DNA of 64,000 bases from an uncultured Acidobacteriia bacterium (lineage in GTDB: Bacteria > Acidobacteriota > Terriglobia > Bryobacterales > Bryobacteraceae): the NCBI GenBank assembly GCA_903825445.1, contig CAIKAS010000277.1, positions 20,639 through 84,638 on the forward strand, read 5' to 3'. Shown here one piece after another: positions 6,258 to 12,078 of the stretch (its first letter is position 1; every line of letters starts with the position of its first letter). The notes beneath the pieces are model-generated. The model was not told the origin of the DNA. It made no database searches and saw nothing but the letters and a program-made list of their open reading frames with translations. Both the position numbers and the translations under genes were made by a program.

Positions 6258-7613
6258 TTAGACGTTTCGGCGGACCGATTCGATTCCAACTGAAGCCAAA
6301 TCCCGTACCAAAAGGATAGATTCGCTATCCGTCGTTGCAGCAAAATTCCTGTTTGCACCAAATCTTCGGGTCCAGACGATTGCGTCTCCCATCACAATGA
6401 CGGGCCATCTGCGCCGTTCCCAAAGTGGAATCCGGAAATCCTGAAACAAGGTCTTGATTTTGACCGCTCCAGGATGACCGTACCGTTCGAACTGGTCTCC
6501 GGGGCGCCAGTTGCGGAGGTGCAATGAACCAAGGCACTTTGCCTGGTCCAAAGCGTTCACGTCACTATTATATACGCCATCGGGGGTGACGAGTTCCATC
6601 TCAATGGTTAAGCGGCGGTCCGGGAGGCTGGTGAGGCCTGGAACGGACAGGGGAACTTCGAAATTTCGCTCTATCCGGGCGTCGAAACCCTGGGGGGCGA
6701 GGCGGAGCTGGTCGAAGGAGCGGTAGACGTCGAGATCCGGCAACTGGATGCGACCGCTGCCTTCGCGGGTGGCCATGAGGGCGCGGATACCCTCTATATG
6801 GTGGAAGCCGATGGCCCGGAGGTGGCCGCGGACGCGTTCGACGGCGCGGCGGAGCAGGCGGCGCTGGGCGGCGAGAGGAAGTTCGACGAAAGGCTCGATG
6901 TTGAGCAGGACGGTTTCGGGCGCGGTTTGGAGATACAGAGGTTCCAGCAGGTCGAGTTCGGTAGTCCAGTAGTCTTCTTCGGCGCGCGCCCATTCAGCAG
7001 TGGAGGCGAGGACTTCGGGAAGCGCGGGGTTCAGCTGCGTGAGTTCCGGTAAGATGTTGTGCCGGATACGGTTGCGCTGGTAGTCGGTATTGGCGTTGGA
7101 CGCGTCTTCGCGCCATTCGATATTACGGGTCTTTAGGTATTCGCGAATTTCGGCGCGGCGGATGGAGAGTAGCGGGCGGATGGTGCCGGTGGCGGTTTCG
7201 GGGCGAATGCCGCTGAGGCCGGCGGAACCGGAGCCGCGCAGGAAACGGAAGAGGACGGTTTCGGCCTGGTCGTCCAATGTGTGGCCGGTGGCGACGGTGT
7301 CGCAGATGCCCTGGCTAATGCAATCGGAAAAGAATTGGTAGCGCAGGCGGCGGGCTTCCTGTTCGGTGTTGCCCTCAGCGGGCGGGAGAGTGGCCACGTG
7401 GCAGGAGAGGTCTGCGGCGGCGGCGAGGGCGCGAACGAAGGCTTCATCGGCGTCGGATTCGGGGCCGCGAAGTTTGTGGTTGACGTGGAGGATAGCGGCG
7501 GCGACGTTGAGTTCGCGGAGGACGGTCAAGAGGAAGACAGAATCTGCACCACCAGACACAGCTACGCCGATGCGTTTGTGGTCGGCGACGGCAGTGGAGA
7601 TGCGGGTGAACAC
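6258..7613 (-). CDS. tilS: tRNA(Ile)-lysidine synthetase TilS
   Basis: 451 aa; VAVSGGADSVFLL PP-loop, ATGHTLDDQAETVLFRFLRGSG; next to ftsH. Confidence 0.93.
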   Translation of the reverse strand: MFTRISTAVADHKRIGVAVSGGADSVFLLTVLRELNVAAAILHVNHKLRGPESDADEAFVRALAAAADLSCHVATLPPAEGNTEQEARRLRYQFFSDCISQGICDTVATGHTLDDQAETVLFRFLRGSGSAGLSGIRPETATGTIRPLLSIRRAEIREYLKTRNIEWREDASNANTDYQRNRIRHNILPELTQLNPALPEVLASTAEWARAEEDYWTTELDLLEPLYLQTAPETVLLNIEPFVELPLAAQRRLLRRAVERVRGHLRAIGFHHIEGIRALMATREGSGRIQLPDLDVYRSFDQLRLAPQGFDARIERNFEVPLSVPGLTSLPDRRLTIEMELVTPDGVYNSDVNALDQAKCLGSLHLRNWRPGDQFERYGHPGAVKIKTLFQDFRIPLWERRRWPVIVMGDAIVWTRRFGANRNFAATTDSESILLVRDLASVGIESVRRNV

Positions 7614-7668
7614 AATCTGATCTTAATAGCCGTCGACAAACGCCGATGGACGCCGATAGCGCAAAAAG

Positions 7669-8364
7669 CTAGGCGGCATGCTGCATTGGGGCCGCGTTTT
7701 TTGCGTCGCGGGGCGTTTTACAAAACGAAGCCGATTCGCTGGATGACGGCAGTGGGGCGGCGAGCATGGCGTCGATTCGCAGCGTTTCCCGGAGCCCTTC
7801 GAGGCGGAATTCAGCTGCGGATTGTTGGGTGAGTTGCTTTTCGATGGATCGCCAGTCGCAGATGCCCATATAAGAGAGATCCGTGCCGTCTTCGGTGGAT
7901 TCGTTGCGGTAGAGGCGATCGGTCTGGAGTTTTCGGAGTTCGGCGGTGCATTTGTGCATGAGGCGGTGGGCCTGGGAGCGGGCGCGGTCGACGGAGATCT
8001 GGAGTTTGGCCTGGGATTCTACCTGCATGGGGTCGGGGATGTTGCCGGTATCGTCGCCTGTTTCGTGGTCGGTGGGGACCATGCTGGCTTCGACGAGACC
8101 GCAGCGGCGGAGACGCCACATGGCGCGGCGGATTTCGTTGACCAGTTCGTGTTCGAGCATGCCTTGCGGGGCTAGGTCGTGGTTAAGGGCCTTGTCGAGG
8201 TCGGCGTAGGCGGATTGCTCGGCGGGGCGGATGAAGTCGTGGTCGGTGAAGAGGCCGTGGGTGGTGGCGTTCTTCGAGGATGTTGTTTTGCCTTCTTCGG
8301 TGCGGGGTCCGGTGGAGGATCGGGCGTTGATCGCGTTGGCGATGCTTTGCGCGGGACTGGACAT
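7669..8364 (-). CDS. Conserved hypothetical protein (NARSSTGPRTEEGK family)
   Basis: From ATG at 8364: MSSPAQSIANAINARSSTGPRTEEGKTTSSKNATTHGLF; pattern I associate with a recurrent acidobacterial family of unknown function. Longer ORF start at 8631 looks unsupported. Confidence 0.6.
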   Translation of the reverse strand: MSSPAQSIANAINARSSTGPRTEEGKTTSSKNATTHGLFTDHDFIRPAEQSAYADLDKALNHDLAPQGMLEHELVNEIRRAMWRLRRCGLVEASMVPTDHETGDDTGNIPDPMQVESQAKLQISVDRARSQAHRLMHKCTAELRKLQTDRLYRNESTEDGTDLSYMGICDWRSIEKQLTQQSAAEFRLEGLRETLRIDAMLAAPLPSSSESASFCKTPRDAKNAAPMQHAA

Positions 8365-8600
8365 TTTCTGGTTCCTTTTTTCGGCGTGAATTGGGGAGCG
8401 AATGCGGCGGCTCTCCTGGAGACAGAGTTGCATGCTGGAAGGGGGTCGAAAGGCGGGAGGGCGGTAAGGTGATGAAAACAGGGTGACGATATATTTTGAA
8501 ATCTGTGACTCACCCACGACCGGGCTTCGCTCCGGCCACAACGAGGGCTGACATGGGGATGAGAGGACGCAGCTATGGAGTGCGTAAAGGGTAGTTCCGC

Positions 8601-8636
8601 CTAACGTGTCTTGACCAAAGCTTATGGACACTAACG
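8601..8636. repeat. CTAACG direct repeats flanking a TGTC...GACA segment
   Basis: CTAACG|TGTCTTGACCAAAGCTTATGGACA|CTAACG immediately downstream of the RT-nuclease operon. Confidence 0.6.
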
Positions 8637-8639
8637 CAG

Positions 8640-9359
8640 TCAGCCAGTTCTGTATCTACTGAAGGGCTCGGCGATATAATTAACAATCTCAGATAGCACA
8701 ACCGCCGCCGTCATACCTGCCGTCGTCATGCATAACGTTTCGAGATCATCCTCAAGGTAAATTCCAGACCGAGGGTTAACCAAACAGACTGTTTTAATAT
8801 CGTATTTCTTTATGCTGAAATTAAGAGCACAGTAGCAAAGCAACTGTCTGATATCAGCGCCGCGAAATTGCCGTTCACCGGCCTTCACCTCGAAGAGTGT
8901 GTAATCTCCGAGCACATCGCCTACCGCTTCGTCGAGCCACCCACATCCGGGAAAAGACGGCTTAGCAAGAAGGTTTCTTATAGGGCGGCCAGAAAAAAAT
9001 GCGCTTAGACTCTTTGCAACCGTTGCTGCCTCGCGTAATCCATATTTACCCATCGGCTGCGGAGGCAGTCCAGAAGAGTGCGGCATTTTGGCAATGTAGG
9101 CCAAGGCTTCGCTCGCACACTGGGAGATAAGATTCTCGGGAAGATCTGGCACTGGGACTGATAGCCGCAGTGATGCAGCGAATAATAGAAAAGCACATTC
9201 GTTAACCAAACCCCTCTGGTCAGGCGGAACCAGCGAGTACAGGGGAGCGGCAAATCGGCATAACCTCACGTTGCGCGTCCGAATGTAAGGCTCCTCCATG
9301 GGTAACAGGGAGTTCCAGAAGGCAGAATGGGAAAGAGAGAAGCGCTTTTCGCTTATCAT
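8640..9359 (-). CDS. Putative PD-(D/E)xK-nuclease-like protein, RT-associated
   Basis: 239 aa; WLDEAVGDVLGDYTLFEVKAGERQFRGADIRQLLCYCALNF fits a D-x(n)-ExK core followed by a Q-rich helix; ATGA overlap with upstream RT gene. Confidence 0.65.
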   Translation of the reverse strand: MISEKRFSLSHSAFWNSLLPMEEPYIRTRNVRLCRFAAPLYSLVPPDQRGLVNECAFLLFAASLRLSVPVPDLPENLISQCASEALAYIAKMPHSSGLPPQPMGKYGLREAATVAKSLSAFFSGRPIRNLLAKPSFPGCGWLDEAVGDVLGDYTLFEVKAGERQFRGADIRQLLCYCALNFSIKKYDIKTVCLVNPRSGIYLEDDLETLCMTTAGMTAAVVLSEIVNYIAEPFSRYRTG

Positions 9360-11152
9360 AATGGCAAATCCCAGGTACGCCCATTGTTCTTCTCACCCAC
9401 CCACTTCATGAACTCCGAATCGGTTTCGCTGAATTCATCCCGAAACCTATGCCTCCAGTGTCTTCCCTCATCCCCTAAGATGTACGACGCTACGATTAGT
9501 GCCCGCTTTTCCCAAGGCGTCAGGATCGCAAAACGTTTCAGCTGTTCCGAAAGCCAATAGTCCACGCGTCGGCGAGTCATCGCGAGTAATACATCCCGTT
9601 TCACCATCATGTCGGTCTTTGGCCGGTGGTAGACGTCGATGAGCAATGCGTCTGTTTCCTCCGCGCGATCAAACGCCAAAATGTGAATTGCAAAACTGAG
9701 GTTCGCGGGAACCAAAAAAATATGCGAATTCTGGACGATAAGGTTACGAATCGTTTCAAACACTTCGAGCCTGATCTCCTCTGATAGCTCGTCTAACAGA
9801 CGGTGCAACACGATCGCGACGCTCGGGAAAATAGGATACAGTATCCGGAGGTTTCGTACTACTGAACGCGCTGCCGCATCACGAAGCAGTGGAGGAAGGA
9901 AGCGAATTGACTTCACGAGTTGGCGTGTGAGGCCTTCATCAATCCTGCTTTTGTTTAGCTCCCGCGACAGCATGCCCGTAATATCAAAGCGTGCAAGCTC
10001 CTCTCGGAGTTGCTCGTATTGCGCGTCTGCGGTAGGTGAATACGGATCGTACGCCAAGCGAAGGCCTAGGAACTCTTTTGCCGTTGCCTCATCTACAGAA
10101 TCGGCCGCTACTGGTTCTGCCATCGGCGATGATCGGGTGAATTCAGCCTTGGACATGAGCCGTGTCTTAGCCCGTGCGAGCGTGAGACCCTCATTGGCCA
10201 AGAGAACCTCACTAAGCTGTACGAGCGCGCTCTGTGCGGATGTGGCAGAATCAGCAAAGATCAGATAGTCATCAACAAACCTGCAAAAGCGAATGCCCGC
10301 GGCAAGTAGTAACCGATCTGTTCTGTTGAGCAGGAGTTCCGCGAGCAGACGAGCCGCGTTACCGCCTACGGGCAGACCGTAAGACGGGCCACCGGACAAA
10401 CGCTTCAGGATTTCCATGACTCGTTTGACCGCCTCAGTCTCCGTCGTAGCCTGCTTGAGCGCGTTCTCTAGTCGATGATGATAAATGCGCGGATAGAAGT
10501 CTGATATGTCGGTCGATATAACGAACTCAGCTGAATTGACGTATTCGAGAGCCGTGCGATGGAACATCGCCCAGCCGATTTCAGGATTGAAAAGTGTGTT
10601 GCGTTCATTAGAGAGATTGAATCGGTACGAGAAAATGATCTTTTTTTCGACTGGAAGTCGAGCTTTCTCAATATCGCTCCCAATTTCAATGAGTAACGCC
10701 AGAAGATATGCATTCCATATTGGGTCAATTTGAGACGCGGCACGAAATCCGTGGTAGCCGACACTCGCCAGGCCTGTGGAAAAATTTACGGGATACGTTC
10801 TTAGCCAGCGGTCAAAGTCCGCATCCAGAGACATCAGGAGCCGGGTAACAGCCTCTTCATCATCGTGAAACCAATGGTTCTCAAGCGGAAAGGGAAATAC
10901 GTCCGTGTCGCCGTGGTGGGCAACGTTACGAACGGCAAAAAGGGCGCTCTCTTTGCTTATAGCCATCAGGTCGAGTTCCTTCGGTTCGAACAACTGGGCC
11001 CCGTATTTGCAAGCTGCTCCAAACTGGCGGGACCGCGACGCTTTTGCTAGTTCATCTAACCGATCATAGCGACGTATTCGGCGGTCATGTCTCCTATCCC
11101 ATTGAACTTTCAGGAAACGGGACGACTGCGTCGCCGGGAACGGTTTCGACAA
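9356..11152 (-). CDS. Reverse transcriptase (RNA-directed DNA polymerase), UG/Abi defence-type candidate
   Basis: 598 aa; FVISTDISDFYPRIYHH (motif A), GGPSYGLPVGGNAARLLAEL (motif B), FCRFVDDYLIFAD (motif C); C-terminal about 230 aa helical, repeat-like. TTG start at 11152 uncertain. Confidence 0.88.
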   Translation of the reverse strand: MSKPFPATQSSRFLKVQWDRRHDRRIRRYDRLDELAKASRSRQFGAACKYGAQLFEPKELDLMAISKESALFAVRNVAHHGDTDVFPFPLENHWFHDDEEAVTRLLMSLDADFDRWLRTYPVNFSTGLASVGYHGFRAASQIDPIWNAYLLALLIEIGSDIEKARLPVEKKIIFSYRFNLSNERNTLFNPEIGWAMFHRTALEYVNSAEFVISTDISDFYPRIYHHRLENALKQATTETEAVKRVMEILKRLSGGPSYGLPVGGNAARLLAELLLNRTDRLLLAAGIRFCRFVDDYLIFADSATSAQSALVQLSEVLLANEGLTLARAKTRLMSKAEFTRSSPMAEPVAADSVDEATAKEFLGLRLAYDPYSPTADAQYEQLREELARFDITGMLSRELNKSRIDEGLTRQLVKSIRFLPPLLRDAAARSVVRNLRILYPIFPSVAIVLHRLLDELSEEIRLEVFETIRNLIVQNSHIFLVPANLSFAIHILAFDRAEETDALLIDVYHRPKTDMMVKRDVLLAMTRRRVDYWLSEQLKRFAILTPWEKRALIVASYILGDEGRHWRHRFRDEFSETDSEFMKWVGEKNNGRTWDLPL

Positions 11153-11180
11153 GCGGACAGCCCGACCAGTTCACATCCAT
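11094..11180 (-). pseudogene. Truncated DUF433 antitoxin-like N-terminus
   Basis: ATG at 11180 preceded by AGGAG: MDVNWSGCPLVETVPGDAVVPFPESSMG*; the WSGCPLVETVPG block matches the start of DUF433 proteins, then family similarity stops. Confidence 0.5.
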
Positions 11181-11301
11181 GTGGCTCCTATTCTGCGCGA
11201 CGGCGGCGACATCGATCCATGGCGGGTGATTCGTTCAAATCGACGGTATTGGGGGTACATGGGGATTTGAAGACGCTCTGGACTATCGAGTGTAACGTTA
11301 A

Positions 11302-11366
11302 CTATGTCCCCGGCTATACATGACGCGTACCGACCGGACAAAAAGTGGTACCGAACGGGGACATAG
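11302..11366. repeat. Perfect 11-bp inverted repeat CTATGTCCCCG ... CGGGGACATAG
   Basis: Arms 11302-11312 and 11356-11366, 43-bp spacer; adjacent 8-bp palindrome TAACGTTA at 11293-11300. Confidence 0.8.
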
Positions 11367-11457
11367 GTGAGAGGTAGTTCCGAAGCGGGCCTCAGACTGG
11401 CAGTGCCGACCCCGGCATGGGTCACGGGCTGCTGGACGGTTAAATTATCATGAGACA

Positions 11458-12078
11458 GTGAAACTTTTGATTTTTTCGGATCTCCATGGCGACACTCTGG
11501 CGCTGAAGCGACTGATGGCGACGGAGGCCGACTATTACTTCTGCGCGGGGGATTTGGTGAATTTCGCGCGCGGGCTGGATGCGATGGGCGAGATTATGCA
11601 GGCCCGGGCGGATCACGTGTATGTGCTGCCAGGCAATCACGAATCGGCTGCGAACGTCTCGGAGCTCTGCGAGAAGTTCGGATTTCACGATTTCCATGGC
11701 GGGCGGATGCAGATCGATGGTTTCGAGGTGGTCGGGCTGGGGTATTCGAATCCAACACCGTTCGACACGCCAGGAGAGTATTCCGAAGAGGAACTCGAAA
11801 CGCGCCTGCATGCGTTCGACGGGCTGAAACCGATGATCGCGATCTGCCATGCGCCGCCGTTCGGGACGTCGCTCGACCGGATTACGAATCTGAAGCATGC
11901 GGGAAGCCGCGCCGTGCGCGAGTTTCTGAAGCGTGAACAGCCACGGTACTTTTTTTGCGGGCACATTCACGAAGCAGCGGGGGCACAGGACAAGCTGGGG
12001 GACACCTCCGCGATGAATGTTGGGAAGAAGGGCTATCTGCTGGATCTGAATCAACAAGCGGAATGGGGGCAAATCTGA
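11458..12078 (+). CDS. Metallophosphoesterase
   Basis: GTG start; LLIFSDLHGDTLALKRL, YFCAGDLVN, VLPGNHES, FFCGHIHEAAG motifs. Confidence 0.85.
   Translation: MKLLIFSDLHGDTLALKRLMATEADYYFCAGDLVNFARGLDAMGEIMQARADHVYVLPGNHESAANVSELCEKFGFHDFHGGRMQIDGFEVVGLGYSNPTPFDTPGEYSEEELETRLHAFDGLKPMIAICHAPPFGTSLDRITNLKHAGSRAVREFLKREQPRYFFCGHIHEAAGAQDKLGDTSAMNVGKKGYLLDLNQQAEWGQI

Follow-up and report, generated by a model that had tools for sequence, protein, structure and literature searches.

A reverse transcriptase-nuclease cassette assigned to DRT type 8 in an uncultured acidobacterial genome

A reverse transcriptase (RT) gene and a gene for a small nuclease-like protein lie together on the minus strand of a 64,000-nucleotide stretch of DNA from an uncultured Acidobacteriia bacterium, which we call the window. 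The locus raises two questions: whether this pairing is a defence system of a new kind, as a preliminary description had suggested, and how a polymerase and a nuclease encoded side by side might act against phage. Here we examine the identity of the pair, its relatives and surroundings, the predicted folds of its products and the readings that these leave for its mechanism.

Identity and limits of the two genes

Both open reading frames (ORFs) of the preliminary description are present, joined by an ATGA overlap at 9356-9359 in which the nuclease start sits within the RT stop, and their profile matches lie far beyond chance. The RT matched the PADLOC Drt8 model at 509 bits (E 5.1e-153; the runner-up, RT_UG21, reached 112 bits), and its partner matched RTasPDDEXK, the PADLOC model for the RT-associated PD-(D/E)XK nuclease, at 186.8 bits (E 1.1e-55), with each model covering nearly the full length of its protein. 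Pfam placed RVT_1 on the RT and had no match for the nuclease; in NCBIfam neither protein reached the cut-off of any model. The features of the pair are as follows.

8640..9359, minus strand: RT-associated PD-(D/E)XK nuclease, 239 aa (PADLOC, alignment, AlphaFold, fold matches)
9356..10966, minus strand: Drt8 RT, which we take to be UG7-type, 536 aa from ATG 10966 (PADLOC, alignments, AlphaFold, PDB fold matches)
10967..11152, minus strand: 5' part of the longest RT ORF, in frame with the RT but probably leader sequence (alignment starts of relatives, start-codon survey)

We regard the pair as almost certainly an intact DRT type 8 system with its named partner. The RT-nuclease pairing, put forward earlier as potentially new, is therefore already known: a characterised DRT class has this exact partner, both members have PADLOC models, and by its sequence the window locus is a divergent new example with no difference in kind. 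Gene order and coupling are like those of the relatives found. With none of these does the window RT share more than 52% identity, and the 52% match spans just a partial locus. Mestre et al. 2022 reportedly defined DRT8 as the UG7 group, and the two names presumably correspond. According to reviews, DRT8 confers phage resistance by a mechanism that they report as unresolved (PMC13314766, PMC13213688).

The preliminary description was right to call an RT and wrong about its length. Its 598 aa are those of the mechanical longest ORF, which begins at TTG 11152. Alignment with relatives begins at about residues 50-73 of that ORF, with none before about residue 50, so we place the likely RT start at ATG 10966, which yields a 536-aa protein matching the family length in the start-codon survey and alignment; 10967-11152 is probably leader rather than coding sequence.

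Other RT types were considered and rejected: a retron (no msr-msd-type match in Rfam; retron NCBIfam models far below their cut-offs), a group II intron (no intron RNA in Rfam; group II NCBIfam models likewise far below cut-offs) and a DGR (no template and variable repeats; no long direct repeats).

Relatives, co-inheritance and genomic setting

A genome scan recovered 11 RTs at 38-52% identity to the window RT, and the nuclease adjoined the RT in 11/11. Together with a prophage contig (L053) and a locus from a complete genome of the window's own phylum (L062, the same as G079), these make 13 distinct relative loci (RT identity 36-52%) spread across phyla, with the nuclease directly downstream in 13/13; L054 is a near-identical second copy of the L053 prophage. 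Across the window and these 13 loci, the junction is a 4-nt overlap in 11 of 14, a 1-nt overlap in 2 and a gap of a few bases in 1 (L062). The nuclease-linked RTs, the window RT among them, group as a single clade in a maximum-likelihood tree (support 100/99), which a wider quick tree recovered again (support 96). Among the clade's members are loci of the window's own phylum and of Pseudomonadota, Thermodesulfobacteriota, Cyanobacteriota, Bacillota, Verrucomicrobiota, Bacteroidota and Bdellovibrionota.

Comparisons across these loci show that RT and nuclease are co-inherited. Their identity matrices correlate at r 0.90, a value matched in 0 of 2000 permutations, and at r 0.48 in the 87 pairs whose RTs are less than 60% identical; the nuclease diverges faster than the RT in 91/91 pairs. 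The earlier term defence operon holds: the RT operon is of a defence type, and its PD-(D/E)XK partner is genuine and kept across phyla. Viral contigs contained no relative when searched with the window RT as query and two near-identical prophage copies when searched with the RT alignment; plasmids gave matches only at 27-36% identity and phages one weak match. In the prophage, the DRT8 pair (L053:3929-6318) is a compact two-gene cassette with a DUF1367 gene on one side and a DnaB-type helicase gene on the other. A contig labelled Euryarchaeota (L015) carries an RT-nuclease pair close to that of Bacteroidales L017 (86% DNA identity) and is possibly misbinned.

Outside the nuclease-linked clade lie 20 more distant RTs of the main tree and 3 from the window's phylum, none with an RTasPDDEXK-type nuclease within reach. 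All of those scored (8 of the 20 and 3 of the 3) reach about 400-525 bits against Drt8, so the Drt8 model is broader than the nuclease-linked system. Most of these Drt8-scoring RTs without the nuclease look solo. A SIR2 gene adjoins the RT in L029, an OLD-type AAA/TOPRIM gene stands beside it in L030 and L043, and an AAA gene does so in L036; in L030/L031 a truncated SIR2 gene is followed by the OLD gene. L079 has a deoxyribosyltransferase-8xMP membrane protein beside its RT, both Pfam matches being below cut-offs.

In the window, the cassette has tilS on one side and a metallophosphoesterase gene on the other, and congeners possess both of these genes. The cassette looks acquired, as the preliminary description had it, and it is indeed less GC-rich than its surroundings: GC is 51.2% over 8640-10966 vs 58.7% in the window outside 8640-11457, only 3 of 1,234 windows of that length being as low, and third-position GC is 0.52-0.56 vs roughly 0.65-0.73 in most neighbouring genes. 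A search of 12 congeners with the RT gave a close match in none, and within the window's phylum a Drt8-scoring RT occurs in 5/396 genomes and the full nuclease in 2/297. The interval from tilS to the metallophosphoesterase gene (7613-11458) varies within the genus. G007 (L059) has only a small glyoxalase-like gene there and G001 (L060) a different insert, about 6 kb of other genes; clean insertion boundaries are not readable among the congeners compared, since the interval differs among them. Repeats flank the cassette in the window.

7711..8509, minus strand: dispersed multi-copy repeat in the downstream flank, within ORF 7669-8631 (67-91% matches on several contigs of the same genome)
11353..11400, strand unassigned: short repeat or mobile-element relic in the upstream flank (88% match over 48 nt on a second contig of this genome)

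The repeat family of ORF 7669-8631 has no match in Pfam or NCBIfam, and its protein contains NARSSTGPRTEEGK... Mobile-element relics on either side, and neighbours that by eye look like housekeeping genes rather than a defence island, would suit a decayed or non-defensive insertion at an unstable intergenic site. We consider that very improbable: neither ORF is broken, every invariant catalytic residue is present and the junction is the conserved one.

Active sites, folds and the template RNA question

The RT palm motifs are intact in the alignment, DISDFY with D153 and FVDD with D232-D233. AlphaFold, a check proposed in the preliminary description, gave confident models of both proteins (mean pLDDT 91.4 for the RT and 93.2 for the nuclease). 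In the RT model the palm gives way to an all-helical region from about residue 313 to 528, the C-terminal alpha-helical repeat that is a Class 1 feature. The closest solved folds in a PDB fold search were DRT4/UG15, DRT6, Abi-P2, AbiK and AbiA, and the best solved relative by sequence was Abi-P2 (E 8e-20); model and sequence place the RT with these Class 1 alpha-repeat polymerases. Class 1 RTs are described as alpha-repeat enzymes whose DNA synthesis needs no nucleic-acid template (PMC13174585), and AbiK and Abi-P2 carry out protein-primed untemplated synthesis (PMC9508834). The Class 1 Abi/UG polymerases share with the window RT the palm followed by a helical repeat domain and show no sign of a cis RNA, but they are single-gene systems, whereas the window RT has a coupled nuclease. 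The position of the priming tyrosine (AbiK Tyr44, Abi-P2 Tyr61) is not conserved, with no obvious counterpart in the window RT; this RT has no Tyr before residue 58, so its protein priming is putative. Y309, invariant in 35/35 aligned RTs and at the edge of a lower-confidence stretch of the model, is only a candidate primer, as is the near-invariant T21.

In the nuclease, D148 and E157-x-K159 are invariant in all 14 aligned sequences and Q172/Y176 (QxxxY) near-invariant. A sequence search of solved structures gave chance matches only, so a fold search was needed; the nearest folds to the model are of the ACE1 (Cas4 family), Dna2, AddAB, Cas4 and MGME1 type, and PADLOC reported a weak sequence similarity to Cas4 (Cas4a2, E 0.014). 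TM-scores of the fold matches are modest (about 0.4-0.6). The models place the protein among the RecB/Cas4-clan PD-(D/E)XK nucleases, Cas4/Dna2/AddAB-like and with its catalytic residues intact. It shares the core fold and the D-ExK and QxxxY motifs of the Cas4/AddB/Dna2/ACE1 clan but differs in its weak sequence similarity, its own helical N-terminal half and the missing Fe-S cysteine set, a Cas4-family feature (Cys139 is the single near-invariant cysteine and the others vary). The PD-(D/E)XK assignment, previously only inferred, now has behind it the profile match, these residues and a confident model. Proteins of about 350-415 aa in L049, L050 and L051 share only the RTasPDDEXK nuclease core, with no RT adjoining within the sequence examined.

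Class 2 UG RTs of the DRT2/DRT9 type differ in having a conserved cis noncoding RNA, of which none was found at the window or other DRT8 loci. The RT might nonetheless copy such an RNA, in a Class 2 or retron-like manner, with the nuclease acting on the cDNA or controlled by it: DRT2, DRT3a and DRT9 operate so (PMC13213688), and about 490 nt of non-coding space lie upstream of ATG 10966. We find this improbable. When the flanks of DRT8 loci (300 nt upstream, 250 nt downstream) were compared by blastn, no conservation appeared past the coding start, and Rfam gave no match up to E 5 except one by chance. DNA homology stops at or near the ORF ends in L009/L010 (RT 71.5% identical), L013/L015 and L015/L017, as it also does in the non-nuclease RT pairs L020/L022, L033/L035 and L038/L039, and even at 71-73% RT identity (L009/L010, L013/L015) the flanks share no DNA. 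Little room is left for an RNA in the prophage copy L053 (126 nt upstream, 48 nt downstream) or in L014 (22 nt upstream), and the RT fold is Class 1. Because homology ends at the ORFs in the related loci compared, we think it unlikely that the template is an RNA encoded in cis; one that lies within the coding sequence, or comes from elsewhere, is a separate possibility. The earlier proposal that the RT templates is likewise unlikely, fold and sequence pointing to the template-free Class 1 alpha-repeat type and the flanks showing no conserved RNA.

Nuclease as effector or as brake

We lean, by a little, towards reading the locus as a horizontally acquired, complete DRT8 anti-phage cassette that works through untemplated DNA and a nuclease effector, an account taken here as a whole. 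The RT would form an oligomer and make protein-primed, untemplated DNA without a cis RNA, and the DNA product, or the DNA-bearing RT, would restrain or license the nuclease. Phage infection would disturb the product and free the nuclease, which would then destroy DNA and halt infection, probably sacrificing the cell. Like the preliminary description, we favour an effector role for the nuclease, since other effector-like genes adjoin related RTs and Cap17 phosphorylase is given as found with DRT8 (PMC10952713). Many Drt8-scoring RTs without the nuclease look solo, however, so the RT product might protect by itself, as in DRT4 or AbiK.

The nearest folds of the nuclease model include enzymes that process single-stranded DNA, which would suit trimming of the RT product as well and counts against the effector view. 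The main alternative builds on this: the nuclease would continuously trim a toxic single-stranded product of the RT, infection would inhibit or distract it, and the DNA that builds up would itself be the effector. Besides the ACE1/Cas4, Dna2, AddAB and MGME1-type folds and the QxxxY motif, precedents speak for it: RecBCD restrains DRT3, losing ExoI is synthetically lethal in combination with DRT9 (PMC13174585), and the DRT4 product is toxic only if shielded from exonuclease (PMC13213688). Strict translational coupling would also keep RT and nuclease in step. Against it stand the related solo RTs, which have no linked nuclease, and the effector-like look of other Drt8-type partners; the faster change of the nuclease decides neither way. 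We think this alternative rather unlikely, though it deserves serious weight. A specific form of it would make DRT8 an RNA-free Class 1 polymerase with its own nuclease in self-contained balance, triggered when phage interferes with trimming, and we offer that idea tentatively, as doubtful. If true, the balance of polymerase and nuclease would build into the system itself the kind of restraint that host nucleases are reported to exert on DRT3 and DRT9.

Few named DRT types still lack a mechanism in 2026 reviews, and DRT8 is one of them. The single nuclease-linked clade, the Class 1 fold, the end of homology at the ORFs and the varied effector-like genes beside related RTs together lead to clear predictions: the RT should need no RNA partner and should make DNA without a template, and the nuclease should serve either as effector or as brake. 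To this the window adds one divergent, intact DRT8 copy in a genus whose sampled relatives are without DRT8.

Trypsin-like protease genes stand near the DRT8 operon at L009:4290-5802 and L062:12213-13028, the L062 call being made by eye. Activation by protease, which these genes suggested, was rejected, as neither the window nor most of the loci have the protease. L009 also carries a CAP12-type TIR gene near its DRT8 operon.
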